Below, piece by piece: positions 9,882 through 32,471 of a stretch of 64,000 bases of DNA. Origin of the DNA: Pseudanabaena frigida (GTDB taxonomy: Bacteria; Cyanobacteriota; Cyanobacteriia; Pseudanabaenales; Pseudanabaenaceae); NCBI GenBank assembly GCA_003242085.1, contig QBML01000008.1, positions 62,001 to 126,000 on the forward strand, written 5' to 3'. A program made the translations under genes and the position numbers. The notes under the pieces were generated by a model. That model searched no databases. It was not told the origin of the DNA and saw only the letters and a program-made list of their open reading frames with translations. The stretch's first letter is position 1. Every line of letters starts with the position of its first letter.

Positions 9882-9920
9882 GGTAAGGATGGGCGGCGCG
9901 AAGCGCCGCCCATCCTTACC
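9882..9920. repeat. Palindrome P8, 18-bp perfect stem, GC-GAA-GC apex
   Basis: Arms 9882-9899 and 9903-9920 pair exactly around GAA. It lies between two convergent genes, beside P7. Confidence 0.88.
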
Positions 9921-16447: not shown

Positions 16448-17521
16448 ATGGTTTCTGCCCCATCTAAATTACAGCAAAAATTCGCCGAACCTTTAACTAT
16501 TGGCAATGTCACCCTCAAAAGTCGGGTGCTGCAATCGCCATTGTCAGGGGTGACGGATCTAGTATTTCGGCGGTTAGTGCGACGCTATGCACCAGATTCG
16601 ATGCTGTATACCGAGATGATTAGCGCCACTGATTTACATCACAGGTCAGCTTTGCCGAAGTTGATGGAGATCGATCGCTATGAAACACCGATTAGCATTC
16701 AGCTTTTTGATTGTCGTCCTGATTTTCTTGCCGAAGCAGCGCAAAAGGCAGTGGCTGAGGGCGCAGATACAGTGGACATCAATATGGGTTGTCCCGTAAA
16801 TAAAATCACCAAAAAGGGTGGCGGTTCGTCTTTGCTGCGTCAACCTGAACTTGCTGCCCAAATCGTGCGATCGGTCGTTGAGGCGGTGGATATTCCCGTG
16901 ACAGTGAAAACTCGCATCGGCTGGGATGATGCCGAGATTACGATTTTGGACTTTGCAAAGCGGATGGAGGATGCAGGCGCAAAGATGATTACTGTCCATG
17001 CCAGAACGCGATCGCAGGGCTATACGGGTACTGCTAAGTGGGAATGGATTCGTAAGGTCAAAGAGGTGCTGACGATTCCTGTAATTGCCAATGGTGATAT
17101 TTTTTCGGTAGATGCCGCGATCGCTTGTTTAGAGCAAACGGGTGCGGATGGGGTGATGTGTTCGCGTGGAACACTGGGCTATCCGTTTTTGGTAGGCGAG
17201 GTCGATCGTTTTTTAAAGACTGGTGAATATTTGCCCAAGCCAACGGCAATTGAATGCTTGCAGGTTGCTAAGGAGCACCTACAGGGTTTGTGGGATTACA
17301 AGGGCATCCGAGGCATCAGACAATCGCGTAAACATATGACTTGGTATGCCAAGGGTTTTGTCGGAGCGGCAGCTCTGCGCGATCGCCTCTGTCGGATTGA
17401 GTCGGTGCAAGATGGCTTTGATTGTTTGGATGAGGCGATTGAGAAACTTGCCAGCGATCGGGGTGATTTTGCCGCGATTAGTCCTGAAGATATGGCGGAA
17501 ATGATAGCAATGCAGCAATAA
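16448..17521 (+). CDS. dus: tRNA-dihydrouridine synthase (DusB-like)
   Basis: 357 aa. Dus enzymes use FMN and NADPH to reduce specific uridines in tRNA to dihydrouridine. Visible motifs: SRVLQSPLSGVTDLVFRRL at the FMN site, YTEMISATDL, VDINMGCPVNKITKKGGG holding the catalytic Cys (about residue 118), VTVKTRIGW, MITVHARTRSQGYTG and VIANGDIFS with GVMCSRGTLGYPFL. Length and motif set fit the DusB branch better than DusA or DusC, though the exact uridine target cannot be read from sequence. ATG 16448. The next gene on the strand is lptC after a 110-base gap. Confidence 0.92.
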   Translation: MVSAPSKLQQKFAEPLTIGNVTLKSRVLQSPLSGVTDLVFRRLVRRYAPDSMLYTEMISATDLHHRSALPKLMEIDRYETPISIQLFDCRPDFLAEAAQKAVAEGADTVDINMGCPVNKITKKGGGSSLLRQPELAAQIVRSVVEAVDIPVTVKTRIGWDDAEITILDFAKRMEDAGAKMITVHARTRSQGYTGTAKWEWIRKVKEVLTIPVIANGDIFSVDAAIACLEQTGADGVMCSRGTLGYPFLVGEVDRFLKTGEYLPKPTAIECLQVAKEHLQGLWDYKGIRGIRQSRKHMTWYAKGFVGAAALRDRLCRIESVQDGFDCLDEAIEKLASDRGDFAAISPEDMAEMIAMQQ

Positions 17522-17631
17522 TATTTGTAATCATGGTTTGCTCATTGTCTATAGCATTTCCCAGTCTCGTACCTCGGCTGCTTGAAAAGCGCTATAGCAT
17601 AGGACAAATCAAAACTCGAACAAAAACCATC

Positions 17632-18768
17632 ATGGGCATCATGCAAACATTTAGCCGCCGTAACTTGCGTCTGTTTATCATCGTCTTTGTTATAACTGTG
17701 TTGATTTTTGCGCTCGGATGGTTTATATTTTTGCGCCCCACAATCACTAGTTTAAATAAATCACCGCAAACGGCTGGCTCTAGTCTCCAAAACATCACTC
17801 TCACCGAATTTGATGCCAATGGAAAACTACTTTGGGAAATTACTTCTAAACGTGCCGACTATCGTCAAGACAGTAAAATCGCTGATGTCGAAGATGTGAA
17901 AGGTAAGTTTTATCGTGATGGCGAACCTTTGATGGAGGCAACGGGCGATAAAGGAACTATCGATCAAAGTACTAAAGAAATTGCACTAGATGGCAATATT
18001 AAGGCGATCGCCGTTCAAGAAAAAATTAATATGAAAGCTGATCGCATGGTCTGGAAGTCTGAAGAGGACGTTCTCAAAGCCTCAGGTAATATTCAGATTG
18101 ACAAGCCCGAAGATAAACTAACGATGACAGGTAAAGAATTAACCGCCAAGCCAAGTACTAATGTCTATAGTTTAGAAAAGCAGGTAATCGTCACAGCCGT
18201 TAAACCTCCATTGGAAATGAAGAGCGAAAAAGTTACTTGGGATGCGAAGCGCGATCGCGTCTTTACTGAAGTTCCGCTTTCGGTAATCCAAGTAAAGGAT
18301 AAAATGCAACTTTCGGCAAAAAAAGGTAACTGGGATATCAAGAAAAATGAAGTTACATTTACTGGTGAGATTAAAGCTAAAGATCCTAAATTAGATGTTG
18401 AACTTGAAGCATCGGAAGCAGTTTGGAATCTCGATAAAAAACTAGTAACGTTACCCGTAGAATTTACAGCCACAAGTAAAAGTCGCGGCATTGTTGTCAA
18501 AGCTCAAAAGGGAGAAGCACAAATCGAAAAGGAACAGATTAATCTTACGGGACAAGTCTTGGCAAGTTTTAGCTCTACGCAAGGAGTTGTGAATGCTGAC
18601 AAGGTGGAGTGGTTGATTCCGACAAAGACAATTACTGCCGATGGCAATATTGTCTATCAGCAGCCAGATAAAAATCTCAACGTCAAAGGCGATCGCGCAG
18701 TGGCTAATCTCGAATTGCAAACTGTCACAGTAACAGGTACAAATGTTCTTTCAACTCTCAATCCTTAA
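17632..18768 (+). CDS. lptC: LPS export protein LptC, long cyanobacterial form
   Basis: 378 aa from ATG 17632; the open frame extends 33 codons upstream but that part is not family-like. A cytoplasmic N-terminus is followed by one membrane helix (about 13-35, LFIIVFVITVLIFALGWFIF), then the LptC core starting ITLTEFDANGKLLWEITSKRADY, and a C-terminal half made of repeated OstA/LptA-like beta units (GKELTAKPS, KGNWDIKKNEVTFTGEIKA, DKVEWLIPTKTITADGNI). LptC relays lipopolysaccharide from the LptB2FG pump to LptA in the periplasm. It is twice the proteobacterial length, which is normal for cyanobacteria. No other lpt gene is in the window. Confidence 0.88.
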   Translation: MGIMQTFSRRNLRLFIIVFVITVLIFALGWFIFLRPTITSLNKSPQTAGSSLQNITLTEFDANGKLLWEITSKRADYRQDSKIADVEDVKGKFYRDGEPLMEATGDKGTIDQSTKEIALDGNIKAIAVQEKINMKADRMVWKSEEDVLKASGNIQIDKPEDKLTMTGKELTAKPSTNVYSLEKQVIVTAVKPPLEMKSEKVTWDAKRDRVFTEVPLSVIQVKDKMQLSAKKGNWDIKKNEVTFTGEIKAKDPKLDVELEASEAVWNLDKKLVTLPVEFTATSKSRGIVVKAQKGEAQIEKEQINLTGQVLASFSSTQGVVNADKVEWLIPTKTITADGNIVYQQPDKNLNVKGDRAVANLELQTVTVTGTNVLSTLNP

Positions 18769-18823
18769 GATAGGTTTTGTGTTTGCGGAGTTTTTAATAT
18801 GGTGATGGTGTTGCAAATACTGC

Positions 18824-21709
18824 CTACAGCCCATTACCGATCGCAAAAAAAGCTGACCAATACTTAGGATGCTTATATTGTGATGATTTGATTAGAGTAA
18901 CTTGTGCTCTGCGTAATGCTTCCGCCGCCGTAATATCGCCTTTTTGGAGTTCGCTGTAAAATGCAGTCATAAGTAAACTTGTACCCACATCATCAACTTT
19001 CCAAAGCGAAGCGATCGCATTTTTTGCACCAGCTTTTTGAATTTGATAGCCAAAACCTAAAACCTCCACCCCATCACCGAGCTTGCCTGTCCCCGTCTGA
19101 CAAGCACTAAGAATGATTAGATCTATATTCGGGATTTGCCAATCGCTGATTTCATTCAAACGGATTTTGTCACCATTACCAAAAATGATGAAGGAGTTAT
19201 CGGGTACACCACTATTAAACTCGGCATGGGTAGCTAGGTGGAGAATATTATGATCTTTGAATTTAGACTCAATCGCTTGGCGGCTAAATTTATCTTCGAT
19301 TAGTGTGACTGAGTTTTGAAATGAATTGGCGATCGCCTGTACTTCTTTAATCGTGGCGGGTAACCCATCTTGTCCAAACTTTTTCTCTCCCGCTTTACCA
19401 CCAAATGCTCCTGCGAGGATGTTAGGTTGAGATTTGGGCTTAGTTGAGAAATCAGTGAGAGTGTAGGCAATGAGATTACTAATTCGATATTTTTCTACTA
19501 ACCATTGTTTGCCATCATGGAGTGCTGCTAGAGGTGCATAGCGTAATACTCCATCAGGAGCATAGAGGATTGCTTCAGCTTTGGCAGCAACAAGTTCAGT
19601 TTCAATGGGTTTGATCAAAACTTCATAGATTGCTTTAGAAGCTTCTTTAATATCTTCCAAACTAGCACTACGGAGTCCTACTCTGTATTCAAAAATTAAT
19701 TCTTCTAGTTTCTCTTTGGAGATTTTGACGGTGCGGTTAATGGGGATGGTGTTAGGCGAGAAGAGGATAATTTCGAGTCTGTCGCCTAAAATCAAGGGAT
19801 AAAGTAAAACTGTTCCTTGAGGGATTTTTTGGAGATAGTCGGGTACTTTGTTGATTTCTGATTTGGGAAGTTGTTGGATTTTGTTAGCAAGTTGGCTGTT
19901 AATTTCAGGGCTATTCTCAAAGCTAATTGCTAACAGCTTATCGCTCATCGCTTTCTCTGGTTCTAAAAGTCGGACACCTTGCGCCGATCTGTCGCTGCCT
20001 TTGATGTTTTTGAAATAGTCTTCGAGTTCTTGGACTTTGAGAAGATCGAGGACTTGGAGAGCTTCCATGATGCGATCTTGTTGAATCAGTATGTCGGCGA
20101 GGCGTTTATAGCTGCTAGAGACAGTTTCTAAATAAGATTTTTGGGTATCTTTATCGAGTTTACGGATGTCTTTGCGGATTGCTTCTCGGACGTTGATCGA
20201 TTGTTTGTAAAAGAGAATTGCGAGATCGGGGCATTTTTTTATGGATAATACATTTCCTAAATTTGCGAGAGCATAACCTTCGACATTTCTATCGCCGATC
20301 TCTCTAGCAATGGTCAATGCTTGCTGATAAGAAATCATTGCTTCTCGATATCGATTTAGTTTTTCGTGGGCAACGGCTAAATTATTCAGTCCAATCATTT
20401 CGCCGCTTCGGTCTTTGATTTCCCACGCGATCGCTAATCTTTGCAGTTGGTAATCGATCGCTTTGTCATATTTGCCGAGGGCTTGGTAAGCGACACCCAG
20501 ATTTCCCAGCGCAGTTCCCTCACCACTGCGGTCTTTGATTTCCCGCGCGATCGCTAATACTTGCAGATAGAACTCAATCACTTTGTCATATTTGCCGAGG
20601 GCAGAGTAAGCGTTTCCCAGATTTCCCAGCGACTGTTCCTCACCGAGACGGTCTTTGATTTCCCGCGCGATCGCTAAGCTTTGCAGCTGGTAATCGATCG
20701 CTTTGTCATATTTGCCGAGGGAATCGTAAGCGTTTCCCAGATTTCCCAGTGACCGTCCCTCACCGAGACGGTCTTTGATTTCCCGCGAGATCGCTAATAC
20801 TTGCTGTAGGTAATCGATCACTTTTTCATATTTGCCGAGGGCTTGGTATGCGATTCCCAGATTTCCCAGCACACTCCCCTCCCCTTGACGATCCTTGATT
20901 TCCCGTAGGATTGCTAAAGCTTGCAGTTGGTATTCTATTACTTTTTCATATTTGCCGAGGGCTTGGTATGCGATTCCCAGATTTCCCAGCGCCTTTCCCT
21001 CACCGCTACGGTCTTTGATTTCCCGCGCGATCACTAATACTTGCAGTTGGTATTCTATTGCTTTTTCATATTTGCTGAGGGCTTGGTATGCGATTCCCAG
21101 ATTTCCCAACGACTGTCCCTCACCAAGACGGTCTTTGAGTTCCCGATCGATCTCTAAGCTTTGCAGATGATTCTCAATCGCTTTGTCATATTTGCCGAGA
21201 TAATAGTAAGCGAGTCCCAGATTTCCCAGCGACTGTCCCTCACCAAGACGGTCTTTGATTTCCCGCGCGATCGCTAAGCTTTGCAGTTGGTACTCGATCA
21301 TTTTGTCATATTTGCCGAGTTTTAGGTAAGCGATTCCCAGATTTCCCAGCGCCTTTCCCTCACCGCTACGGTCTTTGATTTCCCGCGCGATCGCTAAGCT
21401 TTGCAGTTGGTACTCGATCATTTTGTCATATTTGCCGAGTTTTAGGTAAGCGACACCCAGATTTCCCAGCGCCTTTCCCTCCCAGAGACGGTCTTTGATT
21501 TCTCTATAAATTGTCAATGACTGCTGCCATGAATGAAATGCTGCCTCAAACTGACTAATTTGATATTGCTGCTTCCCTTGATTAAACAGTCGATCTGCTT
21601 CAGCTTTACGGTCTTGATTTGTTTGGGCTTGGACACTTTCACTCATCACTATCTGCACTTGCCCACAAGCCAAAAAAGCCAACATCGCAATACCAACAAA
21701 CTTATTCAT
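18824..21709 (-). CDS. Exported TPR-CHAT protein A (caspase-like)
   Basis: 961 aa from ATG 21709; a TTG at 21736 is the alternative, but the signal peptide MNKFVGIAMLAFLACGQVQI fits the ATG. After the leader come about 12 TPR units of exactly 40 residues of kinesin-light-chain type (GEGKALGNLGIAYLKLGKYD... AIAREIKDRS); units 2-10 are almost copies of one another. A helical linker (RKDIRKLDKDTQKSYLETVSS) leads to the C-terminal CHAT domain (about 690-961) with catalytic His in LHLATHAEF and Cys in IILSACQTGTG. CHAT proteases belong to the caspase/separase clan; most act on unknown substrates. Export is supported by the signal peptide. Closest in-window relatives are genes B and C and the fragment at 28150. 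Confidence 0.9.
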   Translation of the reverse strand: MNKFVGIAMLAFLACGQVQIVMSESVQAQTNQDRKAEADRLFNQGKQQYQISQFEAAFHSWQQSLTIYREIKDRLWEGKALGNLGVAYLKLGKYDKMIEYQLQSLAIAREIKDRSGEGKALGNLGIAYLKLGKYDKMIEYQLQSLAIAREIKDRLGEGQSLGNLGLAYYYLGKYDKAIENHLQSLEIDRELKDRLGEGQSLGNLGIAYQALSKYEKAIEYQLQVLVIAREIKDRSGEGKALGNLGIAYQALGKYEKVIEYQLQALAILREIKDRQGEGSVLGNLGIAYQALGKYEKVIDYLQQVLAISREIKDRLGEGRSLGNLGNAYDSLGKYDKAIDYQLQSLAIAREIKDRLGEEQSLGNLGNAYSALGKYDKVIEFYLQVLAIAREIKDRSGEGTALGNLGVAYQALGKYDKAIDYQLQRLAIAWEIKDRSGEMIGLNNLAVAHEKLNRYREAMISYQQALTIAREIGDRNVEGYALANLGNVLSIKKCPDLAILFYKQSINVREAIRKDIRKLDKDTQKSYLETVSSSYKRLADILIQQDRIMEALQVLDLLKVQELEDYFKNIKGSDRSAQGVRLLEPEKAMSDKLLAISFENSPEINSQLANKIQQLPKSEINKVPDYLQKIPQGTVLLYPLILGDRLEIILFSPNTIPINRTVKISKEKLEELIFEYRVGLRSASLEDIKEASKAIYEVLIKPIETELVAAKAEAILYAPDGVLRYAPLAALHDGKQWLVEKYRISNLIAYTLTDFSTKPKSQPNILAGAFGGKAGEKKFGQDGLPATIKEVQAIANSFQNSVTLIEDKFSRQAIESKFKDHNILHLATHAEFNSGVPDNSFIIFGNGDKIRLNEISDWQIPNIDLIILSACQTGTGKLGDGVEVLGFGYQIQKAGAKNAIASLWKVDDVGTSLLMTAFYSELQKGDITAAEALRRAQVTLIKSSQYKHPKYWSAFFAIGNGL
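20400..21510 (-). repeat. Nine near-identical 120-bp tandem repeats inside TPR-CHAT A
   Basis: The DNA for TPR units 2-10 repeats with a 120-base period; each unit carries variants of GGTCTTTGATTTCCCGCGCGATCGCTAA (shown here only by its ends GGTCTTTGATTTCCC and GCGATCGCTAA) and TTTGTCATATTTGCCGAG on the plus strand. All units keep the frame. The high similarity points to recent unequal crossing-over or gene conversion, so the repeat number may vary between strains. Confidence 0.85.
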
Positions 21710-21868
21710 CGCCAAAACCCTCGCAGTTACATCCAAACCCTCGGTTGACCAACAGTCAGCATAAAGCGATATTCCCCAAAATAGGCGATCATTACAAAAA
21801 ACATAACCAACCCAAAATCGAAACCATCTACGAGGTGATATATTCTTTGGAAATGATCACCCCCCGCA

Positions 21869-22696
21869 ATGATCGATAACGTTTGTAAATTCCTCGCAGA
21901 AAGCTACTCCACCGACTTTGCCAGTTGGCTACTAGGCAAACCCATCACCCTAACCAAAATCGAACAATCCGAACTCGCAGTCGAACCAATTCGTGCCGAC
22001 TCAGTAATATTTCTCGAATCAGCCGAAATCATCCTGCACATAGAATTTCAGACCGAACCAAATCAAAATATCCCCTTCCGCATGACCGACTACCGACTGC
22101 GGCTATATCGTAAATATCCCCAAAGAAAAGTCCATCAAGTCGTCATCTATCTCAGCCCCAGTCAATCATCCCTAGTCCATGAAACCACATTTAACCTTGG
22201 AGAATTAATTCATAACTTCAACGTGATCAGACTATGGGAACAACCAACCGCAATATTTCAGCAATATCAAGGATTATTACCCTTTGCCACCCTATCTCAA
22301 ACCATTGCCCCCGAAGAAACCTTAAGACAAGTGGCGAGACAAATCGAAAATATTACCGATAAGCAACTCCAAAGTAACGTCGTCGCCTCGACCGCTATAA
22401 TATCTGGTATAGCCCTAAGCAAAGAAATCATCAAAAGATTACTCAGGAGCGACATCATGAAAGAATCAGTAATTTATCAAGAAATATTGCACGAAGGCTT
22501 AGCTGAAGGTGAAGCTAGAGGTTTAGCCAAAGGTAAAGCTGAAGGCAAAGCTGAAGAAAGAAATCAAATTGCTCTCAATATGCTGCGTTCTAACATTTCT
22601 GTAGATGTCGTGGCACAACTGACTGGACTAACCGCCAAGCAAGTGCAGAAACTGCAAAAGCTATCTAATAAAAAGTCTCAGAAGCCAAAAAAGTAA
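21869..22696 (+). CDS. Rpn family nuclease / PD-(D/E)XK putative transposase
   Basis: 275 aa. The N-terminal half carries a PD-(D/E)XK-like core: ELAVEPIRADSVIFL followed by EIILHIEFQTEPN, matching the D...(E)xQ arrangement of the Rpn/YhgA-like family of recombination-promoting nucleases (large and common in cyanobacteria, often called DUF4351 or transposase family). The C-terminus has a repetitive acidic/Lys-rich stretch (GLAEGEARGLAKGKAEGKAEE, about 212-232) and the small tail domain ISVDVVAQLTGLTAKQVQKL. It is transcribed opposite to the CHAT genes that flank it. Its codon use is richer in CCC/ACC than theirs, hinting at separate origin. Whether it cuts DNA is not established. Confidence 0.85.
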   Translation: MIDNVCKFLAESYSTDFASWLLGKPITLTKIEQSELAVEPIRADSVIFLESAEIILHIEFQTEPNQNIPFRMTDYRLRLYRKYPQRKVHQVVIYLSPSQSSLVHETTFNLGELIHNFNVIRLWEQPTAIFQQYQGLLPFATLSQTIAPEETLRQVARQIENITDKQLQSNVVASTAIISGIALSKEIIKRLLRSDIMKESVIYQEILHEGLAEGEARGLAKGKAEGKAEERNQIALNMLRSNISVDVVAQLTGLTAKQVQKLQKLSNKKSQKPKK

Positions 22697-22704
22697 TCGC
22701 GATC

Positions 22705-22748
22705 GCAAAAGAGTAGAAGCAATTCATGAATTGCCTCTACTCTTTTGC
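22705..22748. terminator. Palindrome P11, 20 of 21 bp paired
   Basis: Arms 22705-22725 and 22728-22748 with one mismatch and a two-base gap at the tip, between the convergent Rpn and TPR-CHAT B genes. Likely bidirectional terminator. Confidence 0.8.
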
Positions 22749-22792
22749 CAAGGAACCATTTTTTTGTGGCGTGATGATGGTGCAAATGCTCC

Positions 22793-25330
22793 CTACAATC
22801 CATTACCGATCGCAAAGAACGCCGACCAGTAATTAGGATGCTTGTACTTTGGCGATTTGATCAGAGCAATTTGCGCTCTATGTAAAGCCTCGGTGGATGT
22901 GACATCGCCTTTTTTGAGTTCATCATAAAAAACTGCCATGAGTGCTTGAGTTCCCTCATCATTTACATTCCAAAGCGAGGCGATCGCATTTTTAGCTCCT
23001 GCTTTTTGAACTTGATAACCAAATCCTAAAATTTCTACACCATTTCCGAGTGCTCCAGTACCTGTCTCACAAGCACTAAGCACGATCAAATCTATATTTG
23101 GAATTTGCCAATCACTGATTTCATTCAAACGGATTTTATCGCCGTTACCAAAAATGATGAAGGAGTTGTCTGGCACACCAGTATTAAACTCGGCATGGGT
23201 AGCAAGGTGGAGGATATTACGATCTTTAAATTTAGACTCGATCGCTTGGCGGCTAAAAGCTTCTTCGGTGAGAGTGACTGAGTTTTGAAATGCATTGGCG
23301 ATCGCTTGAACTTCTGTAAGTGTGGCAGGCAAACCAAATTGTCCAAACTTTTTCTCTCCAGCTTTACCGCCAAATGCTCCTGCGAGGATATTGGGCTTAG
23401 ATCTGGGCTTAGCTGAGAAGTCAAAAAGGTTATAGGAAATTAGATTGCTAATCCGATATTTCTCGATTAGCCATGTTTTGCTATTATAGAGAGCGGCAAG
23501 GGGAACATAGCGTAATAATCCATCAGGGGCATAGAGGATTGCATCAGCTTTGGCAGCGACAAGTTCAGCTTCAATGGGTTTGATCAGAACATCATAAAGT
23601 GCTTTAGAGGATGCTTTAATATCTTCTGAGGTAGCATCACGTAGTTCCACTCTGTATTCAACAATTAAGGACTCGAGTTTATCTTTGGAGATTTTGACGG
23701 TGCGGCTGATGGGGAGCGTGTTGGGTGAGAAGAGAATGATTTCGATGCGATCGCTTAAAATTAATGGATAAATAAGAACGCTTCCCTGCGGTAGTTTTTG
23801 CAGATATTGAGGAACTTTGTTGATTTCCGATTTGGGGATTTGCTGGATTTGGCTTGCTAATTTGCGATTGAGTTCGGCGATCTGTTCTAAGCTAAAAGCT
23901 GAAAGCTGAGAACTAATCGCTTTTTCTGGTTCCAAAATTCTCACCCACTGCGATGCGCGATCGCTGCCTTTAATATTTTTGAGGTAGTCTTCGAGTTCTT
24001 GAATTTTGAGAAGATCGATAATTTGTAGTGCCTCAATGACCCTATTCTCTTGGAGTAATAGATCCGCTAAGTAGCGATAACGATCTGATACCGTGCCGAC
24101 ATAGGACTGTCGATCCTCTTTGCTGAGGCTGCGAATGTCTTTACGAATTTCTTCTGTGATGCTGATTGAACTTTTTAAGACAGCGATCGCGATGTCAGTT
24201 CGTTCTAGTTTTGATAGGGCATAACCGATTTGAGCAAAGGCACTTGCTTCTGCACGCCGTTCGCCGAGTTCTTTGGCTATAAGCATCTGCTGCTGGGAGA
24301 AATCTATCGCTTTCTCATATTGTTTGAGCAAATTGTAAGTGATGCCTAGATTGCCTAAAGTTGCGGCTTCTCCTTGCCGATCTTTGATGCTGCGGGCGAT
24401 CGCTAAAGTCTGCTCGAGATATGCAACTGCTTGTGGATACTGACCGAGATCGTTAAAAGCTTTGCCGAGATTTCCCAAGGCGGTGGCTTCTCCATTGCGA
24501 TCGCCAATCTGTTTGTAAATCGCCAAAGCTTCTTGATAGGCTGCTATTGCTTGTTGGAACTTTCCTAAATAGGCATAGGTATTACCTAGATTTTCTATGG
24601 CTTTACCTTCTCCACGCCGATCTCCGATCGCTTTCACTAGCGTTAAGCTCTGTTGTAGCCATTCAATCGCTTTTTGATACTGCCCGAGATAAGCATAAGT
24701 GTTACCAATATTTCCTAAAGCATAGGCTTCTCCACCCCGATCGCCAATACTTTTTGCTGCCGTAAGATACTGTTGATAGAATTCAAGCGCCTTTTGGTAT
24801 TTTCCCAACGCAACGTAGCTATTTCCTAGAAGACCGAGTGTAATGCTTTCCATTTGACGATCTCCACTTGACTTTGCGATCGCCAAGCTTTTTTGGTTGA
24901 ACTCAAGCGCTTTTTGATATTGTCCTAACGCAAAGTAAGTTGCTCCTAAATTATTTAGTGCTTTGCTTTCTAGAGCAGCATTATTAATGGCTCTGGCAAT
25001 TTCTAAGGTTTGTAAAAAAGAACTAGTTGCATTCTCATATTGCCCCAAAAGGAGATAGATATTACCAATCAATAGATGGGCGCTTGCTTGGTTGGGATCG
25101 TTGAGTTCTCGATAAATTTGTAATGCTTGCTGAGATGACTGTAATGCTTGCTGATATTGGCTAGCTTGTACTTGCTGAAGCCCTTGATTAAAGAGCCGAG
25201 CTGCTTCGGCACTACGATTTTGTTGAATAGACTGGGCTTGAGCAGTAGTCAATGGATGGTTTGGCGGTAATCCTAAACTCAAAACACTGATTGTCAATAC
25301 GCATGCGATCGATCTGAGCCAAGAAGTCAT
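22793..25330 (-). CDS. Exported TPR-CHAT protein B (caspase-like)
   Basis: 845 aa from ATG 25330, which has AGGTG upstream and opens directly on the signal peptide MTSWLRSIACVLTISVLSLG; the open frame extends 50 codons further but that part is intergenic palindrome. About nine 40-residue TPR units follow (GEAYALGNIGNTYAYLGQYQ, GEGKAIENLGNTYAYLGKF), more diverged from each other than in protein A. The CHAT domain has His in LHLATHAEF and Cys in IVLSACETGTG. Over the last 270 residues it is very similar to A, e.g. both contain FNTGVPDNSF or FNSGVPDNSF and IRLNEISDWQIPNIDLI. It is separated from gene C by about 175 bases containing palindrome P12, so the two may have separate promoters. Confidence 0.9.
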   Translation of the reverse strand: MTSWLRSIACVLTISVLSLGLPPNHPLTTAQAQSIQQNRSAEAARLFNQGLQQVQASQYQQALQSSQQALQIYRELNDPNQASAHLLIGNIYLLLGQYENATSSFLQTLEIARAINNAALESKALNNLGATYFALGQYQKALEFNQKSLAIAKSSGDRQMESITLGLLGNSYVALGKYQKALEFYQQYLTAAKSIGDRGGEAYALGNIGNTYAYLGQYQKAIEWLQQSLTLVKAIGDRRGEGKAIENLGNTYAYLGKFQQAIAAYQEALAIYKQIGDRNGEATALGNLGKAFNDLGQYPQAVAYLEQTLAIARSIKDRQGEAATLGNLGITYNLLKQYEKAIDFSQQQMLIAKELGERRAEASAFAQIGYALSKLERTDIAIAVLKSSISITEEIRKDIRSLSKEDRQSYVGTVSDRYRYLADLLLQENRVIEALQIIDLLKIQELEDYLKNIKGSDRASQWVRILEPEKAISSQLSAFSLEQIAELNRKLASQIQQIPKSEINKVPQYLQKLPQGSVLIYPLILSDRIEIILFSPNTLPISRTVKISKDKLESLIVEYRVELRDATSEDIKASSKALYDVLIKPIEAELVAAKADAILYAPDGLLRYVPLAALYNSKTWLIEKYRISNLISYNLFDFSAKPRSKPNILAGAFGGKAGEKKFGQFGLPATLTEVQAIANAFQNSVTLTEEAFSRQAIESKFKDRNILHLATHAEFNTGVPDNSFIIFGNGDKIRLNEISDWQIPNIDLIVLSACETGTGALGNGVEILGFGYQVQKAGAKNAIASLWNVNDEGTQALMAVFYDELKKGDVTSTEALHRAQIALIKSPKYKHPNYWSAFFAIGNGL

Positions 25331-25414
25331 AACATCACCTTTGAGGTTACGACATGATTTTATCGCTAATTTAACCACTACGATTTGTGTTTCTATGAAA
25401 GACAGACCTAGGAC

Positions 25415-25473
25415 ATAAAACCCAAATAAATAGAGGCGGCGCTTCGCGCCGTCTCTATTTATTTGGGTTTTAT
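25415..25473. repeat. Palindrome P12, 27 of 28 bp paired, GC-TTC-GC apex
   Basis: Arms 25415-25442 and 25446-25473 around TTC, with one G/T mismatch. Almost the same sequence as P13 at 30886, including the left flank TAGGACATAAAACCCAAATA. These two copies must share recent ancestry. Confidence 0.92.
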
Positions 25474-25504
25474 TAAGCAAAAATTACATTAAATCAGTTA
25501 TTAA

Positions 25505-28039
25505 TTACAATCCATTCCCGATCGCAAAGAACGCCGACCAAAAATAAGGATGTTGATAATTTGGTGATTTGATGAGAGAAACTTGCGCTCTGCGTAATGC
25601 TTCGGAAATTGTGACATCTCCTTTTTGAATTTCACCATAAAATGCTTCCATGAGTTTTTGCGTGCCCACGTCATTAACTTGCCAAAGCGAAGCGATCGCG
25701 ACTCTCGCTCCTGCGGCTTGCATCTGATATCCTAATCCTAGAATTTCGACTCCACTTCCTAGTTTGCCTCCTAGTCCTGATTGACAGGCACTCAAAACAA
25801 CGAGATCGACATTATTGAGTGACCAATTACGAACATCGCTAATCGTGGCTTTGTCACCATTACCAAAAAGGATAAACGACTCTTCGGGTTTACCAAGCGA
25901 TAGTTGTCCGTGAGTGGCTAAATGGATAATTGTATAAGAATTGGCTTTTGTTTCTGTAACCGTTTTTGTGAAGGCAGACTCGATAAAGGTAGTCGTATTG
26001 GCAAAGCGATCGGCAATCTTTTTTACTTCGATCTCAGTTGCAGGCAATCCACTAAATCCCGCGATCTTGCTATCGTTTTTACCGCCAAATGCTCCTGCAA
26101 AGATGCGAGGCTGAGTGATCGGCTTTGTATTAAATTTGGTAAGTGATTGAGCAGTGATGTTATTGATCCGATATTTCTCAACTAGCCATTGTTTGCCGTC
26201 ATAGAGTGCAGACAATGGAATGTAGCGTAGCTTGGCATCGGGAGCATAGACGATCGTATCAATTTTGAGTTGCTCTAAATCAGCCTCAATTGGCTTAATT
26301 AGCCATGTATAGAACTTCTGAGAAGATACTTTAACATCGTCTGAAGTTACATCTTGTAGGTCAGTGCGAAATTCAACGATTCCCTTGTTAAATTCTTCAC
26401 GGTTGACTTTTATTGTTCGACGAATAATCGGGGTCTTGGCGGTAATCAGAATCAGTTCGAGGCGATCTTTGAGAACGAGAGGATAGAGAATGGCTGCGTT
26501 AGGCATCTTGCCGAAAATATCTTTTCCTAAACTGCGAAAACTATTAGGTTCGAGAGTTTGCTGCTTTTCAGTACGGTGCAATTCTTCAAATTGTTTTTGA
26601 ACTTCGGGACTATTGAGAAAGGCGTTGAATTGATTATTTTGATTTTGTTCTGCTTGGACGAGTTGCCTCAGGCGTTGCTGTTCTGATTCAGTGAGTTTAC
26701 CTTCTTTTTGCTGAAGGTTAATAAATTCGCTAGTAAGGGCGATAATATTTTGTTCGGATGTCTGGAGGGGAAGTCCTTTTTCAGTTTCTTCATTACCGCG
26801 CACTGTGTGGAGATAGTCGCTGAGTTCTTGGACTTTCAGCAAATCTAAAACCTGTTGAGCTTCAATAATACGGTCTTTTTTGAGTAGGAGATCGGCAAGA
26901 TTGCGATAGCTCTCTTCGACAGTAGATAGATAGGATTTTTGAACTTCTTTTGGTAATTTGCGTATATCTTTACGAATGGATTCATGGACGTTAACAGATT
27001 GCTTATAAAAGAGAATTGCCAGATCGGTCTGGTTAAGATTTGAAAAAGCAAGCCCTAGATTTTCGAGTGAATATCCTTCACTATAGCGATCGCCAATTTG
27101 TTTAGAGCCTGACAGCGCTTGCTGTAAAAAAACTATTGCTTGTTGGTACTGTTCTAAATTGCCATAGGCAGTTCCTAAACCATTGAGAGCATATACCTCT
27201 CCATTGTGATCGCCAATTTGTTTTTTGATTGCTAGACCTTGCTGATAAAAATCAACCGCTTTCTGGTATTGTCCTAAACTGTTATAGGTGCTGCCTAGTG
27301 TGTAGAGAGAATTTGCTTCTCCATAGCGATCGCCGATCGCTTTTCTAATCACTAACGATTGTTGGTGCAGATCGATCGCTTTTTGATACTGCCCTAAAGT
27401 GTCATAAATGTCGCCCATCCCGTTGAGACAATAGGCTTCCCCATTGCGATCGCCGATCTCTTTTCTGATCGCTAAGGATTGCTGATATAAATCAATCGCT
27501 TTTTGGTATTGACCTAAACTTTCATAGACATCGGCAAGCCCATTGATGGCATTCCCTTCACCATCGCGATCGCCAATTTGTTTGGCAATTTCTAAAGCTT
27601 GCTGATGGAGTTCTATCGCTTTTGGATACTGACCGAGGTTATCGTATGCTTCTCCTAGTCCGTGAAGTGCGTTACCTTCTCCTTCGCGATCGCTGATTTG
27701 TTTTTTGATTGTTAAGGACTGTTGGAATAAATCAATTGCTTTTTGGTACTGCCCTAGACTGTTATAAGTATTGCCTAGTCCGATCGATGCATTACTTTCG
27801 CCTTCGCGATTGTTAGTAGATCGATAGAGCTGTAATGCTGATTGAAATGACTGTAAGGCTTCTCGATACTGGCTTTTGTCAAACTGTTGCGTCCCTATCT
27901 CAATGGCTCGATCTGCGTCTGACTTAGGCTCTTTTGCAGTCTGCGCTTGGACATTTGTTTGAGGAAAATTAGGCGTTAATCCTAAACCTAAAAGTCCAGA
28001 GGATAAAACAAAGGCGATCGAGTAGATTCTTGAAGACAT
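25505..28039 (-). CDS. Exported TPR-CHAT protein C (caspase-like)
   Basis: 844 aa. Signal peptide MSSRIYSIAFVLSSGLLGLG from ATG 28039, then about eight TPR units of the GEGNALHGLGEAYDNLGQYPK type, a helical linker longer than in A and B with a charged coiled-coil insertion (LQQKEGKLTESEQQRLRQLV), and the CHAT domain with His in IHLATHGQL and Cys in VVLSACQSGLG. It is the most diverged of the three paralogues. The end of the protein ([14 protein letters not shown]) is conserved in all copies, including the fragment at 28150. Substrate unknown; predicted periplasmic or secreted. Confidence 0.9.
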   Translation of the reverse strand: MSSRIYSIAFVLSSGLLGLGLTPNFPQTNVQAQTAKEPKSDADRAIEIGTQQFDKSQYREALQSFQSALQLYRSTNNREGESNASIGLGNTYNSLGQYQKAIDLFQQSLTIKKQISDREGEGNALHGLGEAYDNLGQYPKAIELHQQALEIAKQIGDRDGEGNAINGLADVYESLGQYQKAIDLYQQSLAIRKEIGDRNGEAYCLNGMGDIYDTLGQYQKAIDLHQQSLVIRKAIGDRYGEANSLYTLGSTYNSLGQYQKAVDFYQQGLAIKKQIGDHNGEVYALNGLGTAYGNLEQYQQAIVFLQQALSGSKQIGDRYSEGYSLENLGLAFSNLNQTDLAILFYKQSVNVHESIRKDIRKLPKEVQKSYLSTVEESYRNLADLLLKKDRIIEAQQVLDLLKVQELSDYLHTVRGNEETEKGLPLQTSEQNIIALTSEFINLQQKEGKLTESEQQRLRQLVQAEQNQNNQFNAFLNSPEVQKQFEELHRTEKQQTLEPNSFRSLGKDIFGKMPNAAILYPLVLKDRLELILITAKTPIIRRTIKVNREEFNKGIVEFRTDLQDVTSDDVKVSSQKFYTWLIKPIEADLEQLKIDTIVYAPDAKLRYIPLSALYDGKQWLVEKYRINNITAQSLTKFNTKPITQPRIFAGAFGGKNDSKIAGFSGLPATEIEVKKIADRFANTTTFIESAFTKTVTETKANSYTIIHLATHGQLSLGKPEESFILFGNGDKATISDVRNWSLNNVDLVVLSACQSGLGGKLGSGVEILGLGYQMQAAGARVAIASLWQVNDVGTQKLMEAFYGEIQKGDVTISEALRRAQVSLIKSPNYQHPYFWSAFFAIGNGL

Positions 28040-28149
28040 AACTTTTCTTGAAGCTTTGTCATGATTGTACAGTTCTTATCACCTAAATAGAGCGCACTAA
28101 TATTTCATTAAAGCCTCTAGAAGTTTATTTAGTACAAATGACTTAGTCG

Positions 28150-28455
28150 TTAAAGTCCATTGCCGATCGCAAAGAACACTGACCAATAGAAAGGATGGTT
28201 ATATTTCTGCGATTTAATTAGGGAAACTTGCGCTCTATGTAATGCTTCAGTACCATTAACATCGCCTTTTTGGAGTTCACCATAAAAAGCTGTCATTAAC
28301 GCATATGTGCCAGCATCATCGACTTTCCAGAGAGAGGCGATCGCATTTTTAGCACCAGCTTTCTGAACTTGATAACCAAAACCCAAAACCTCTACCCCAT
28401 CATCGAGCTTGCCCGTCCCTGTCTGACAAGTACTAAGAATGATCCGAATACTCAA
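28150..28455 (-). pseudogene. C-terminal fragment of a TPR-CHAT gene
   Basis: About 100 codons equal to the extreme C-terminus of the CHAT domain: IILSTCQTGTGKLDDGVEVL through the terminal FFAIGNGL. It is closest to protein A. The catalytic Cys region is present, but the catalytic His, the rest of CHAT, all TPRs and the signal peptide are missing. It begins with TTG immediately after the stop of the PAS-pentapeptide gene and has no ribosome site of its own, so it is a remnant left by a deletion or recombination. Translational reinitiation cannot be excluded but the product could not be an active protease. Confidence 0.88.
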
Positions 28456-30678
28456 CTAACTGATTACAAGTGCACCTAGCAAGTTACTATCATCAAGTAT
28501 CGCATCTGTAATATTAGCGTCCCTCAAATCAGCACCACGCAAATCAGCACCACGTAAATCCGACCATCTCAAATCAGCATATTGGAGGTTTGCACCGCGT
28601 AAATCCGCGCCACGCAAATTTGCATATTGGAGATTGGCATAACTACAATTGCTGCCATTTAGAGCAACACCGCTAAAATCTACTTGCTGTAATTCAGCTT
28701 CGGCAAAATAGGCTCCACGTAAGTTTAAGCCTGCAAAATTTCGCTGTCCACTTTTATATTGGTTGATTAATGCATTGGCACTAGATCCAAATTTGTTGAG
28801 AGATTCTGTCTCAGAAGATATTAGAGAGGAGACACGCGATCGAACAAGATTCAATCGATTGTCACCGTCATTAGTGCTGCGATCGCCTAACTCATCAATA
28901 ATTCGGAGTACACCAATTATTTTTCCATTCGGATCGTGAACTAGTACTGTTGACATACATACATTCTTTAAATTGCCATCATGAAGCTGGAATGACATCT
29001 GCACACCATCAAGAGGTCTACCTGCTAAAGTACTGAGAACCGCATCTTGTAATTCCATTGCTTGAGGTTCTGGAATACTTGCAACAGGATAGCCAATGAT
29101 TTCCGAATTATTCCAAGAGAATAGTTTCTCTGCGGCTGAGTTCCACAACAAAACTTTGCCTTCAGGACTGATGATATCGATCGCTACAGGTACGGACTTA
29201 ATTACTGCGCGTAATAGTTCATTGGTTCGTTGTAATTCCGATTCCGCTTCACCCCTTTCACTGATATCGATACAAACTCCATCAGCAAGTACTGTTCCTG
29301 AGTCTATAGAATAATAACGAGTGATATTTTGCACCCACTTCACTTCACCAGTGATTGTAATCACCCGAAATTCATGGCGGAAGGTGGCGAGCTTATCAAA
29401 GCCAGCTTTGATCAGTGCCTTAAATTGATCGAGATCTTCAGGATGAATGAGATCGAGCAATTGTAAAGGTGAGGAGATGGCGTATCTAGGTGAAATACCA
29501 ACTAACCCAATTAAACCATCGCTGATAAATGGGATCGAAATTACCCCTTCAGGACTCCTTGCCAAGCGATAGAGGGTAGCAGGCATACTAGAGGCGATCG
29601 TGGCTAATCGGAGTTCGCTCTCTTGCAAAGCTGTTTCTGTCTGTTTGCGTTCAGTAATATCGCGGGAGTTAATCACTAATCCCTGCACATTAGGGTCTTG
29701 TAAGAGATTGCAACAAACTGACTCTAAATAAATCCAATCACCATTAATATGCTGATGGCGCATGACAATTGGCTTTGATACTGAAAGAGTATCTACAGAT
29801 TGAGCTAGAAAATTTTGAAAAATTGGTAAGTCTTCTGGATGAATAAACCTAATAAATTTTTTATCCATTACATCTTCAGGCATGTATCCCAACGTTTTAA
29901 ATAATGCGGGACTGCAATAGTGAATCGTCGTATCGATATCGAGAATATTCACGATATCTGAGGAATGCTGCATCATTGCCCGAAGTTTGGCTTCGTTACG
30001 ATTGAGATTGCGAGAAATGCGGCGTTGCTCTTCTCTCTCTACCCGAATTTGGCGATCCATGAGGTTGAGTTTGGCATTCATTTCTGCCACTCGAATCTCT
30101 AAGCGCTGATGGGACTGTTGTAGCTTTTCCCCTTCTTGTTTGCGTTGGGTAATATCTTGAATCCACCAGCGCATACCGATGACTTTTCCATCTGTTGGTG
30201 TGCGAAGGCTGATAATTGTGAAGCTTGCATCAAAAGGTTGCCCTGTCGGGAATTGCATCCGAAAGTCTAAACTTTTAATGTTTTGTCCTCTTTGAAGCTG
30301 TCCGATGAGTTTTTGAAATTGGTCTTTGTAGGAAGGAAAGACAAAGTTTTCGAGATTTGTCCCAATTGGATGCGAACCAAACATTAGCGTAGCCGCCCGA
30401 TTCGCTTCTGTAATATCACCATTAGCTTCAGTGACAAAATAGCCATCTGGAGCAAAATCAAAAAGTTCTCGATAGCGTTCTAATTCATCGGTTAGCGATC
30501 GCTGGCAAGTTTCTAGTTCTTTCAGGCTAGATTGCAGGCTATTAACTGCATCTTCTAGATTAAGATTTCTGGTCTCAATTTCTACAGAAGACGATATGGA
30601 TGTCGCTGCAATATGTTCTAGTTCTTGCAGTTGCTGAATCGAGGTTGCAATCAACTCGTGACAAAGGTGCATTCCCAT
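28456..30678 (-). CDS. Multi-PAS protein with pentapeptide-repeat tail
   Basis: 740 aa. Three or four PAS/PAC modules (about 65-180, 225-345, 350-470, 480-595; e.g. RYRELFDFAPDGYFVTEANGDI and GVLRIIDELGDR) with a coiled coil near 180-225, then a C-terminal pentapeptide-repeat region (about 650-735) made of A(D/N)LRG units such as ADLRGANLQYADLR. There is no histidine kinase, GGDEF, EAL or other output domain; the tail would form a right-handed quadrilateral beta helix, perhaps for protein binding. The stop TAG is directly abutted by the CHAT fragment. Cytosolic. Signal and partner unknown. Confidence 0.85.
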   Translation of the reverse strand: MGMHLCHELIATSIQQLQELEHIAATSISSSVEIETRNLNLEDAVNSLQSSLKELETCQRSLTDELERYRELFDFAPDGYFVTEANGDITEANRAATLMFGSHPIGTNLENFVFPSYKDQFQKLIGQLQRGQNIKSLDFRMQFPTGQPFDASFTIISLRTPTDGKVIGMRWWIQDITQRKQEGEKLQQSHQRLEIRVAEMNAKLNLMDRQIRVEREEQRRISRNLNRNEAKLRAMMQHSSDIVNILDIDTTIHYCSPALFKTLGYMPEDVMDKKFIRFIHPEDLPIFQNFLAQSVDTLSVSKPIVMRHQHINGDWIYLESVCCNLLQDPNVQGLVINSRDITERKQTETALQESELRLATIASSMPATLYRLARSPEGVISIPFISDGLIGLVGISPRYAISSPLQLLDLIHPEDLDQFKALIKAGFDKLATFRHEFRVITITGEVKWVQNITRYYSIDSGTVLADGVCIDISERGEAESELQRTNELLRAVIKSVPVAIDIISPEGKVLLWNSAAEKLFSWNNSEIIGYPVASIPEPQAMELQDAVLSTLAGRPLDGVQMSFQLHDGNLKNVCMSTVLVHDPNGKIIGVLRIIDELGDRSTNDGDNRLNLVRSRVSSLISSETESLNKFGSSANALINQYKSGQRNFAGLNLRGAYFAEAELQQVDFSGVALNGSNCSYANLQYANLRGADLRGANLQYADLRWSDLRGADLRGADLRDANITDAILDDSNLLGALVIS

Positions 30679-31013
30679 ATACGATCCATATTTTAATCAG
30701 TCTTCATAAGATATACAGTATAGCCCTAATACATAAGCCCCAAAATGCTAGGTAACATAAAGTATAGCATCATGCTTTTGGGTGTTGATTTTCCTAAGAT
30801 CTATAGCTTTAAGCATAACAATGAAATTCAGTCAAAGTTATTGCTTGATATATCTATAGCCACGTATAGCAATTAAAGAGATATCTAGGACATAAAACCC
30901 AAATAAATAGAGACGGCGCTTCGCGCCGTCTCTATTTATTTGGGTTTTATGTCCTAAGCAAAACTTGCATTATGAGCATTAACAATATGCCAACAAAATT
31001 TCGGTGGATAGGA
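30679..31013. other. Intergenic region between helicase 3' end and PAS gene
   Basis: 335 bases that contain the promoter side of the PAS-pentapeptide gene and palindrome P13. CTATAGC and TATAGC words at 30854-30869 resemble sequences flanking other palindromes. No ORF seen. Confidence 0.5.
30886..30956. repeat. Palindrome P13, 34-bp perfect stem, GC-TTC-GC apex
   Basis: Arms 30886-30919 and 30923-30956 pair without a mismatch around TTC. The outer end TAGGACATAAAACCCA recurs at P12 and, altered, at P26 and 42484. The right flank AGCAAAACTTGCAT recurs at P6. It is the clearest full-length copy of the family. Confidence 0.95.
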
Positions 31014-32471
31014 CTAGCGATTGCGATTGTGATGAGAGTCCGATCTTTCAGGTTTAGGGGGCTGAGTAGGTGATTTCGCAGTACTTCTGCCAACTAGTTT
31101 CTTTTGTGGTTGATTTGATGACTTGCTGGGGACTTGAGACGATGGCTTCGCGATAGGATTATTATCCCTTTGTCCGTGTCTGGGTTGATGCTTCGATTGC
31201 CGTCCCACTTGAATTGGCTCAGCCTTAGCGCGAGGATCGGGATCGAATCCAGCAATGATTTCCTGAGGTAGTGATCGCTTAATCAACTTCTCGATATCTG
31301 AAAGAAACTTGCGTTCATCCACACATACTAGCGAAATCGCTTCACCAGACGAGCCAGCCCGTCCCGTGCGTCCGATGCGATGCACGTAGTCCTCAGGTAC
31401 ATTCGGTAATTCGTAGTTAACTACATGGGGAAGTTCGCTAATATCCAGTCCACGCGCAGCAATATCTGTGGCTACTAATACCTGCAAACTACCATCTTTA
31501 AATTTGCCGAGGGCGCGAGTACGGGCGGCTTGACTCTTGTTCCCATGAATTGCCATCGCGACAATGTCATCTTGATGCAATTGCTTAACAAGGCGATCGG
31601 CTCCATGCTTGGTGCGCGTAAATACTAAGACCTGATACCAGTTGTGAGTCTTGATCAAATGCGTAAGTAACTCCCGCTTGCGATCGCGATCGACAGGAAA
31701 TACCCGCTGAGTGACTAAGTCAGCAGTCGCATTCTGAGCGGCAACTTCGACCATTACAGGCTGATTGAGTAAAGTACTTGCAAAGGATTTAATCTCATTC
31801 GAGAAAGTTGCTGAAAATAGGAGATTTTGGCGCTGTTTGGGGAGTAGTGCCAGAATTCGCTTGATGTCGCGGATAAAGCCCATGTCCAACATGCGATCGG
31901 CTTCATCCAATACCAAGATTTCAACTTGCGATAAATCTAAGCGTCCCTGTTGCACGTGATCTAATAGTCGCCCTGGGGTTGCTACTAAGATTTCTACACC
32001 ACCTCTGAGGCGATTAATTTGGGGATTAATATTCACGCCACCATAGATCACCATTGAGGTTAGAGGTAGATGCCGACCATAGGTCTGTACGCTTTCTTCG
32101 ACTTGGGCGGCAAGTTCACGGGTGGGAGTGAGGATCAAGGCGCGGATCGGAATTTTCCCAGTAGCCGATCGCTTGACGACCTTGTTAGACAGTAAATGTA
32201 AAATCGGCAGCGTAAAGCCTGCGGTTTTGCCAGTACCAGTTTGAGCACCAGCCAATAAATCTTGACCTGAGAGGACAACGGGGATCGCCTGTGATTGAAT
32301 GGGGGTGGGTTTGGTATAGCCACGAGCTGCGACGGCACGAACAATTTGCTCGGACAAACCTAATGCTGAGAAACCCTGTGCTGATGCGATCGGAGCCGAA
32401 GATTTGGTAGATATGGATTTGTTAGGTACAGAAGATTTAGTTACAGGAAAGATAATTGCAGAAGAAGACAT
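31014..32471 (-). CDS. DEAD-box RNA helicase (RhlE/CrhR-like)
   Basis: 485 aa. All helicase motifs are present: Q motif in [14 protein letters not shown], motif [14 protein letters not shown], Ia [18 protein letters not shown], motif [12 protein letters not shown], motif III FSATFS, then IV, V ([11 protein letters not shown]) and VI ([12 protein letters not shown]). A basic, Gln/Ser/Pro-rich tail (about 400-485) replaces a folded RNA-binding domain. Such enzymes unwind RNA duplexes; in cyanobacteria CrhR-type helicases respond to cold and redox state, and the 308-base upstream gap would leave room for a regulated leader. Start ATG 32471. Whether it is CrhR itself or a second RhlE-like paralogue cannot be told from the window. 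Confidence 0.93.

Follow-up and report, generated by a model that had tools for sequence, protein, structure and literature searches.

What would a protease of the caspase clan do outside the plasma membrane of a bacterium? In bacteria, CHAT and caspase-like proteases are mostly treated as enzymes of cell death or defence that work in the cytosol. The question arises from a 64,000-nucleotide stretch of Pseudanabaena frigida DNA (contig QBML01000008.1, positions 62,001 to 126,000; hereafter the window), in which three paralogous genes, T1, T2 and T3, encode proteins with a predicted signal peptide, an array of tetratricopeptide repeats (TPRs) and a C-terminal CHAT domain. A preliminary description of this DNA had placed at 18824-28455 three TPR-CHAT paralogues, a remnant and an Rpn gene inside the cluster; the coordinates are right and the profile scores exceed their cut-offs. 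We favour the reading, albeit with considerable reserve, that T1-T3 are exported through Sec, most likely into the periplasm, and act there as cysteine proteases of the separase/CHAT kind gated by their TPRs.

Three TPR-CHAT proteins with an intact predicted active site

All three genes lie on the minus strand. T1 (18824..21709) encodes 961 amino acids (aa) with about 12 TPRs and a CHAT match of 208.3 bits, T2 (22793..25330) 845 aa with 9 TPRs (203.0 bits) and T3 (25505..28039) 844 aa with 8 TPRs (207.6 bits), the CHAT scores being far above the curated cut-off of 24 bits for Pfam family PF12770. The repeats were counted from the helices of a structure model for T3 and from alignment gaps for T2 and T1, and they agree with the 8-12 per protein first proposed. 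Likely ATG starts are at 21709, 25330 and 28039, respectively; the listed open reading frames (ORFs) of T1 and T2 open at an upstream TTG. The TPR array of T1 (20409..21502) consists of 9.1 copies of 120 bp with 83% matches and a 360-bp super-period.

The CHAT domains lie at 18833..19645 in T1, 22802..23614 in T2 and 25514..26326 in T3. They carry the motifs LHLATHAEF/SACQTG (T1), LHLATHAEF/SACETG (T2) and IHLATHGQL/SACQSG (T3), and thus the intact His-Cys dyad of the preliminary description; in T3 the catalytic residues are His710 (25910-25912) and Cys752 (25784-25786). All 119 complete CHAT domains aligned from this genome and its relatives retain the catalytic His and Cys, and also Asp790 and Thr793.

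An AlphaFold model of T3 was built from 39 sequences, with a predicted local distance difference test (pLDDT) score of 80.3 and a predicted template-modelling score (pTM) of 0.75, residues 1-36 and 462-507 being unreliable. By VIA-align the model resembles separase 5fby (Z 26.7, 3.0 Å over 311 residues), the Craspase TPR-CHAT protein 7y84 (Z 26.6, 6.1 Å over 559 residues, about 11-12% identity) and the LGN TPR structure 3ro2 (Z 29.7, 6.1 Å over 312 residues); residues 38-361 (26957..27928) form the modelled TPR superhelix that matches LGN-type structures. H710 and C752 of T3 fall on H585 and C627 of Craspase by way of a weak sequence match (E 0.9-1.1), and these two Craspase residues are named catalytic in PMC9729208. 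The catalytic geometry, on which the preliminary description had let its reading depend, thus appears to be retained in the model. In Craspase, target binding shifts a linker and narrows the distance within the dyad from about 7 to about 3 Å (PMC9729208). The ligand-gating model for T1-T3 is borrowed from this movement, and on the strength of the analogy we lean towards regarding them as ligand-gated proteases.

Signal peptides, cysteine content and evidence for export

Signal peptides were sought with a home-made rule comprising a positive n-region, a hydrophobic 10-residue core and an [AVGST]-x-A site. T1, T2 and T3 each satisfy it, with predicted peptides of 28 aa in T1 (21626..21709, cut predicted after VQA), 30 aa in T2 (25241..25330) and 32 aa in T3 (27944..28039), in keeping with the signal peptides originally claimed. 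A CHAT search of the genome gave 34 matches, more than chance would explain, and every open frame was read. Twenty-three (rows 1-23 of our list) carry CHAT at the C-terminus, together with S[AG]CxTG/SG or a motif close to it. The list continues with a fragment of 207 residues (row 24), the remnant in the window (row 25) and proteins of other layouts, mostly with an early CHAT domain (rows 26-34). The rule was passed by 21 of the 23 C-terminal-CHAT proteins as against none of the nine others (Fisher p = 2e-6) and 42 of 237 background ORFs (2/34 in the window, 40/203 at other loci; Fisher p = 1e-12). Both failures among the 23 look signal-like by eye, one lacking a basic residue and one an ATG. 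Among relatives, 77 of 89 full-length-looking proteins pass, and the 12 failures include several signal-like proteins and others that are seemingly truncated.

Cysteine content provides a test independent of signal peptides, on the premise that stray cysteines should be rare if the protein works outside the cytosol. The 23 C-terminal-CHAT proteins have 1-4 cysteines after residue 70 (11 have exactly one), compared with 3-17 in the nine others (Mann-Whitney p = 2.3e-5). Likewise, exactly one cysteine follows residue 100 in 73 of 89 relatives with at least 600 residues and a complete CHAT domain. This depletion agrees with export.

Furthermore, one paralogue (L049:9442-13746) fuses a two-partner secretion (TPS) domain (105.5 bits) to a CHAT domain (182.2 bits) and adjoins a gene for a ShlB/POTRA transporter, so that at least one family member probably crosses the outer membrane. 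TPS and DUF928 genes adjoin other family members as well. A profile scan found no TPS domain, the criterion for a two-partner secretion exoprotein, in T1-T3, and hence the periplasm is the simplest reading for them. Of the 'surface or periplasmic' location first suggested, the periplasmic half is therefore the likelier for T1-T3 and the surface half is not borne out. The accompanying statement that known CHAT proteins are cytosolic holds for Craspase, but CHAT outside the cytosol has precedents in the transmembrane anti-sigma factor DdvA and in the TPS-CHAT fusion.

Members with the C-terminus GNWL or a variant of it (L032, L033, L039, L040, L041, L049) tend to adjoin TPS exoprotein, ShlB or DUF928 genes, and are possibly a sub-branch served by two-partner secretion.

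Taken together, the signal-peptide counts in relatives, the cysteine depletion and the TPS-CHAT fusion uphold the earlier proposal of an exported family that differs from cytosolic Craspase and has no named role. As judged from sequence, it is very probable that this TPR-CHAT family is exported with its active site intact.

Published work bears on location in a few places. A CHAT protein is listed in a whole water extract (PMC9895726), which is uninformative on location; metacaspases with N-terminal helices, maybe signal peptides, have been described with a suggested extracellular role (PMC3501461); and the term 'CHAT' was not found in the available text of PMC8195603. We found no description of an exported TPR-CHAT family or of its pairing with an S1 protease in the open-licence literature, which is weak evidence of absence.

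A recombining family of variable copy number

Some CHAT protein occurs in 56 of the 58 cyanobacterial genomes searched. Within the genus the number of CHAT matches per genome ranges from 2 to 41, where one of two surveys counts at most 33-34 per genome and gives a lower bound for the genomes above this. In five well-assembled congeners 44 of the 105 members of the exported C-terminal-CHAT class sit in arrays. By these sequence counts the cluster of T1-T3 is not special in itself, and the family is spread over Cyanobacteria. The densest array seen holds about a dozen CHAT genes of the class in 57 kb of one contig (G021:C2:100919-158249).

The cluster is flanked by LptC and DusB genes on one side and by PAS-pentapeptide and DEAD-helicase genes on the other. 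A CHAT gene of the class was present behind the PAS gene in 7 of 20 fetched loci and within 5 kb behind LptC in 3 of 20, some of these stretches being cut by contig ends. One relative (G009, locus L058) has an ortholog of T3 with 83% identity, which likewise adjoins the PAS-pentapeptide gene.

Copies also decay. The CHAT-tail remnant (28150..28455, minus strand, 101 aa, 97.3 bits) abuts the stop of the PAS gene and covers only positions 193-289 of the PF12770 profile. It is about 80% identical to the 3' ends of several CHAT genes, lacks the catalytic His and contains one TAG inside the extended match; G009 has just a short gap at this position. The remnant is best read as the fossil of an additional CHAT copy. 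A free-standing CHAT fragment of 207 aa, with His and Cys intact and neither TPR nor signal peptide, was seen elsewhere (L044:17545-18168).

Segments appear to be exchanged between copies. The CHAT domain of T2 groups with that of the C4 copy (88% identity, support 0.91) and its linker with C7/C8/C49 (support 0.92; 73% identity to C8 vs 62% to T1), consistent with segment exchange that combined a CHAT domain near one paralogue group with a linker near another. The TPR part is the largest portion of the proteins and frequently the more variable one. Plasmid records with similar proteins number 76, of which 20 are classed as conjugative, and a search of phage records with the T3 CHAT domain gave no match at 1e-5. 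CHAT proteins as such are well known; this cyanobacterial family recombines and varies in its number of copies.

Since copies multiply, swap TPR, linker and CHAT segments, and decay, the set is probably a changing recognition repertoire rather than a housekeeping one. That the repertoire serves conflict or self/non-self recognition is a serious possibility that we stop short of calling probable.

An S1-like protease gene adjoins CHAT genes in relatives

A search for co-occurring partners, as the preliminary description had suggested, turned up an exported S1-family protease gene beside CHAT genes in relatives, and none in this genome. Clustering of 862 neighbour ORFs from 90 CHAT loci gave one cluster of an exported trypsin-like protein, encoded in five loci 0-145 bp from the CHAT gene; Pfam confirmed four of the five, whereas L116 is fragmentary and has no Pfam match. 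Among 25 genomes of the genus the S1-like gene has 14 copies in 12 genomes, all 14 adjoining a same-strand CHAT open frame with gaps of -13 to +131 bp, although the CHAT frame is short or cut in four pairs (L173, L180, L181, L183).

Across the class an S1-like match was found in 50 of 291 genomes. Outside the genus the best 41 of 49 matches were fetched and gave 40 loci, of which 18 have a same-strand CHAT gene within 400 bp. In each of four contiguous genomes a gene placed at random would have a 1.8-2.7% probability of lying so near a CHAT domain, the lineages not being independent. A tree of 158 CHAT domains, from a sample enriched for pairs (27 paired, 96 unpaired and 35 not scorable), requires at least 16 changes of pairing state, and therefore the pair re-forms with different CHAT genes. 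Such pairs also occupy the chromosomal site of T1-T3: in G002 and G021 a CHAT/S1-like pair immediately follows the PAS gene, and G020 has the gene order PAS, CHAT, S1-like, CHAT, PRK, DusB.

A His-Asp-Ser triad is common to the 22 S1-like proteins aligned, all of which also have an invariant Arg ahead of the domain. Their best solved relative is the glutamyl endopeptidase 1p3c (47.8 bits, E 1e-11), whose mature chain starts right after the invariant Arg. The alignment suggests that the S1-like protein is a zymogen cut at this Arg, and the adjoining CHAT protein would be a candidate for the cutting enzyme. A single-sequence model of one S1-like protein (L104) had a pLDDT of 33 and was not used.

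A proposed mechanism and its alternatives

We propose a mechanism in which the signal peptide, in a well-supported first step, would carry the protein across the plasma membrane. Judging from the fold, the LGN-like TPR superhelix would then bind an extended ligand, peptide or protein. This would shift the linker and expose the His-Cys dyad, much as Craspase responds to its target RNA. The CHAT domain may next cut an envelope protein at one or a few specific sites. In relatives a further step is conceivable, in which CHAT cuts the next-door glutamyl-endopeptidase-like zymogen at the invariant Arg and so sets up a two-protease relay; we put this relay of exported TPR-CHAT with the S1-like zymogen forward tentatively. 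Because this genome lacks the S1-like partner, T1-T3 themselves cannot work through such a relay and must act on something encoded elsewhere.

In its widest form the proposal is of a cyanobacterial relay outside the plasma membrane: TPR-CHAT as a caspase-clan sensor would switch on the adjoining zymogen, the sensor set would be renewed by duplication and segment exchange, and phage, predators or non-kin would be recognised at the filament envelope, the window holding sensor genes at a site where congeners hold the full pair. As a complete scheme this is speculative, and we think it unlikely to be right in every part.

Several observations weigh against the proposal. The signal-peptide rule is our own, and 42 of 237 background ORFs also pass it. 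The main texts of two exoproteome papers (PMC4390845, PMC10957091), as available, contain neither 'CHAT' nor 'TPR', and in that of a third (PMC10936207) these terms match author names only. The genus-wide search found no copy of the S1-like partner in this genome, and 22 of the 40 S1-like loci outside the genus have no same-strand CHAT gene within 400 bp (4 have one farther away or on the other strand, 18 none in the stretch). The invariant Arg is present also in S1-like proteins without an adjoining CHAT gene (L215, L216) and need not be the CHAT cut site. As to turnover, the TPR-segment trees are weak, the TPR alignments being uncertain owing to repeat register, and the G009 ortholog of T3 is as conserved (83%) as the neighbouring PAS gene (82%), so no hyper-evolution is seen there.

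The alternative that survives best, and which we still regard as unlikely, is a secreted effector of the polymorphic-toxin type, in which the TPRs would deliver or position the C-terminal protease so that it harms competitors. The signal peptide, repeats and C-terminal peptidase of T1-T3 would suit such an effector, as would the TPS-CHAT fusion, and in Sec-exported polymorphic toxins the toxic role is ascribed to C-terminal caspase domains where these occur (PMC3482391). The lone CHAT tails (28150-28455 and L044:17545-18168) might be counted in its favour, but they resemble decay, with about 80% identity to several copies and, in the window, no catalytic His. Moreover the cluster leaves no room for immunity genes, its gaps being 55-174 bp and its sole other gene Rpn, and the TPR portion exceeds the others in size and often in variability.

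An envelope protease with a housekeeping task in cell division or in remodelling of the wall, which would be the periplasmic equivalent of HetF, is rather improbable. HetF, a membrane protein of the Anabaena divisome, has a CHAT domain (PMC8406250), and nearly all searched cyanobacteria (56/58 genomes) have some CHAT protein. However, CHAT counts of 2 to 41 within one genus, and two conserved sites occupied in just 7/20 and 3/20 fetched loci, speak against this role, and HetF itself has an N-terminal CHAT domain (aa 1-555) and one transmembrane segment (PMC8406250).

Cytosolic defence, with the N-terminal hydrophobic stretch unused or an uncleaved anchor, would place T1-T3 beside the several CHAT proteins that work in this way (Craspase, PMC9729208). 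A weak match of T2 to the PADLOC BovA model (24.2 bits) points in the same direction, as do Rpn proteins, which are anti-phage toxins (PMC10327210) and are enriched within 5 kb of CHAT genes in five congeners (11 of 55 vs 2.1 expected), though the random-placement null takes no account of accessory-gene islands. Set against the cleavage-site pattern, the cysteine depletion, the TPS fusion and the exported neighbours, this explanation is very unlikely. A catalytically silent envelope scaffold or peptide-binding adhesin, which the dominance of TPRs would permit, CHAT activity being a prediction, is very unlikely given that His, Cys, Asp790 and Thr793 are kept in 119/119 domains and that nearly all other cysteines are lost while the catalytic one stays.

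If the TPR-gated export reading is correct, caspase-clan signalling also operates in the bacterial envelope, through a large exported branch that can reach tens of copies in a genome. Its frequent coupling to an exported zymogen would offer a concrete enzyme-substrate pair, and a possible role would emerge for a family that ranks among the most expanded of those uncharacterised in filamentous cyanobacteria.

Other genes and features of the locus

The Rpn-family nuclease gene (21869..22696, plus strand; TIGR01784, 98.6 bits against a cut-off of 52.1) is divergent from T1 and convergent with T2. Four-residue repeats 8-20 residues past an internal Met mark the intragenic antitoxin RpnS (PMC10327210), and the gene fits this rule: the internal Met is aa 197 (candidate antitoxin start at 22457), repeats follow about 14 residues on, and a 79-aa short form is possible. 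Rpn was rejected as a functional partner, just one of the five Rpn genes of this genome being near a CHAT gene; in the five congeners the count within 1 kb, by the same null, is 2 vs 0.8 expected. It is taken to be a co-resident gene, perhaps one of defence.

Genes for Uma2 putative nucleases also occur near CHAT genes, in two ORF clusters (11 and 7 loci; L061-L071, L095, L096 and others) and often 58-500 bp away. Nine leucine-rich repeat (LRR) genes, most with signal peptides, form a cluster found in 8 of the 90 loci. LRR genes of several cyanobacterial families (L043:652-2079; L106, L107, L117, L119, L121, L122) lie 0-400 bp from exported TPR-CHAT genes in varied orientation. An LRR protein is a possible second partner of exported TPR-CHAT; the family was left out of the mechanism as it is itself multi-copy.

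The gaps in the cluster are 55 bp between LptC and T1, 159 bp between T1 and Rpn, 96 bp between Rpn and T2, 174 bp between T2 and T3, and 110 bp between T3 and the remnant. T3 and T2 could be on one shared transcript, with a 47-base palindrome of 20-bp stem between them (25421..25467). The palindrome belongs to a dispersed family: its core GGCGGCGCTTCGCGCCGYC has 187 matches in the genome with at most 2 mismatches (99 forward, 88 reverse; reversed control 0), recurs at 9892 and 30912 of the window and elsewhere, and many copies are at contig ends. An Rfam scan of 17000-32000 gave no match.

Comparison with known systems

The closest known relative in layout is the Craspase TPR-CHAT protein (Csx29) of type III-E CRISPR, which like T3 has a TPR array, a linker and a C-terminal CHAT domain, with an aligned dyad 42 residues apart. 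Unlike Craspase, the cluster proteins have LGN-type TPRs, and the genes next to them are LptC, DusB, Rpn, PAS-pentapeptide and DEAD-helicase genes and not Cas7-11/gRAMP, the check for cas genes having covered just these neighbours. We know of no signal peptide described for the Craspase protein.

Eukaryotic separase shares the protease-domain fold of the T3 model; it is inhibited by securin, has a very long helical arm and is nuclear or cytosolic (in part from PMC9729208). HetF of Anabaena resembles T1-T3 as a cyanobacterial CHAT protein of the envelope region (PMC8406250). It differs in having its CHAT domain at the N-terminus, followed by TPRs and a transmembrane segment, whereas the CHAT domain of T1-T3 is C-terminal, and the available main text of that paper contains neither 'signal peptide' nor 'periplasm'. 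Other CHAT proteins are cytosolic or linked to diversity-generating retroelements (PMC10907252, PMC7517822). To the PADLOC model of Borvo BovA, the CHAT region of T2 gave the weak match noted above and T1 and T3 none at E 1e-5. Borvo BovA is a one-gene cytosolic system.

DdvA has its TPR-CHAT part in the periplasm and regulates a defence island. This transmembrane anti-sigma factor with a CHAT domain (PDB 8rot, 8rw5) was matched by the T3 model in Foldseek (E 1.2e-12) and weakly by profile to the CHAT domain (E 0.12); it was absent from two alignment searches and from the 50 VIA-align matches listed, and differs from T1-T3 in being a membrane anti-sigma factor. Finally, the S1-like partner of the relatives resembles the glutamyl endopeptidase (S1B) 1p3c in its aligned His-Asp-Ser triad and in the mature start that follows the invariant Arg; unlike 1p3c, it is cyanobacterial and encoded beside an exported TPR-CHAT protein.

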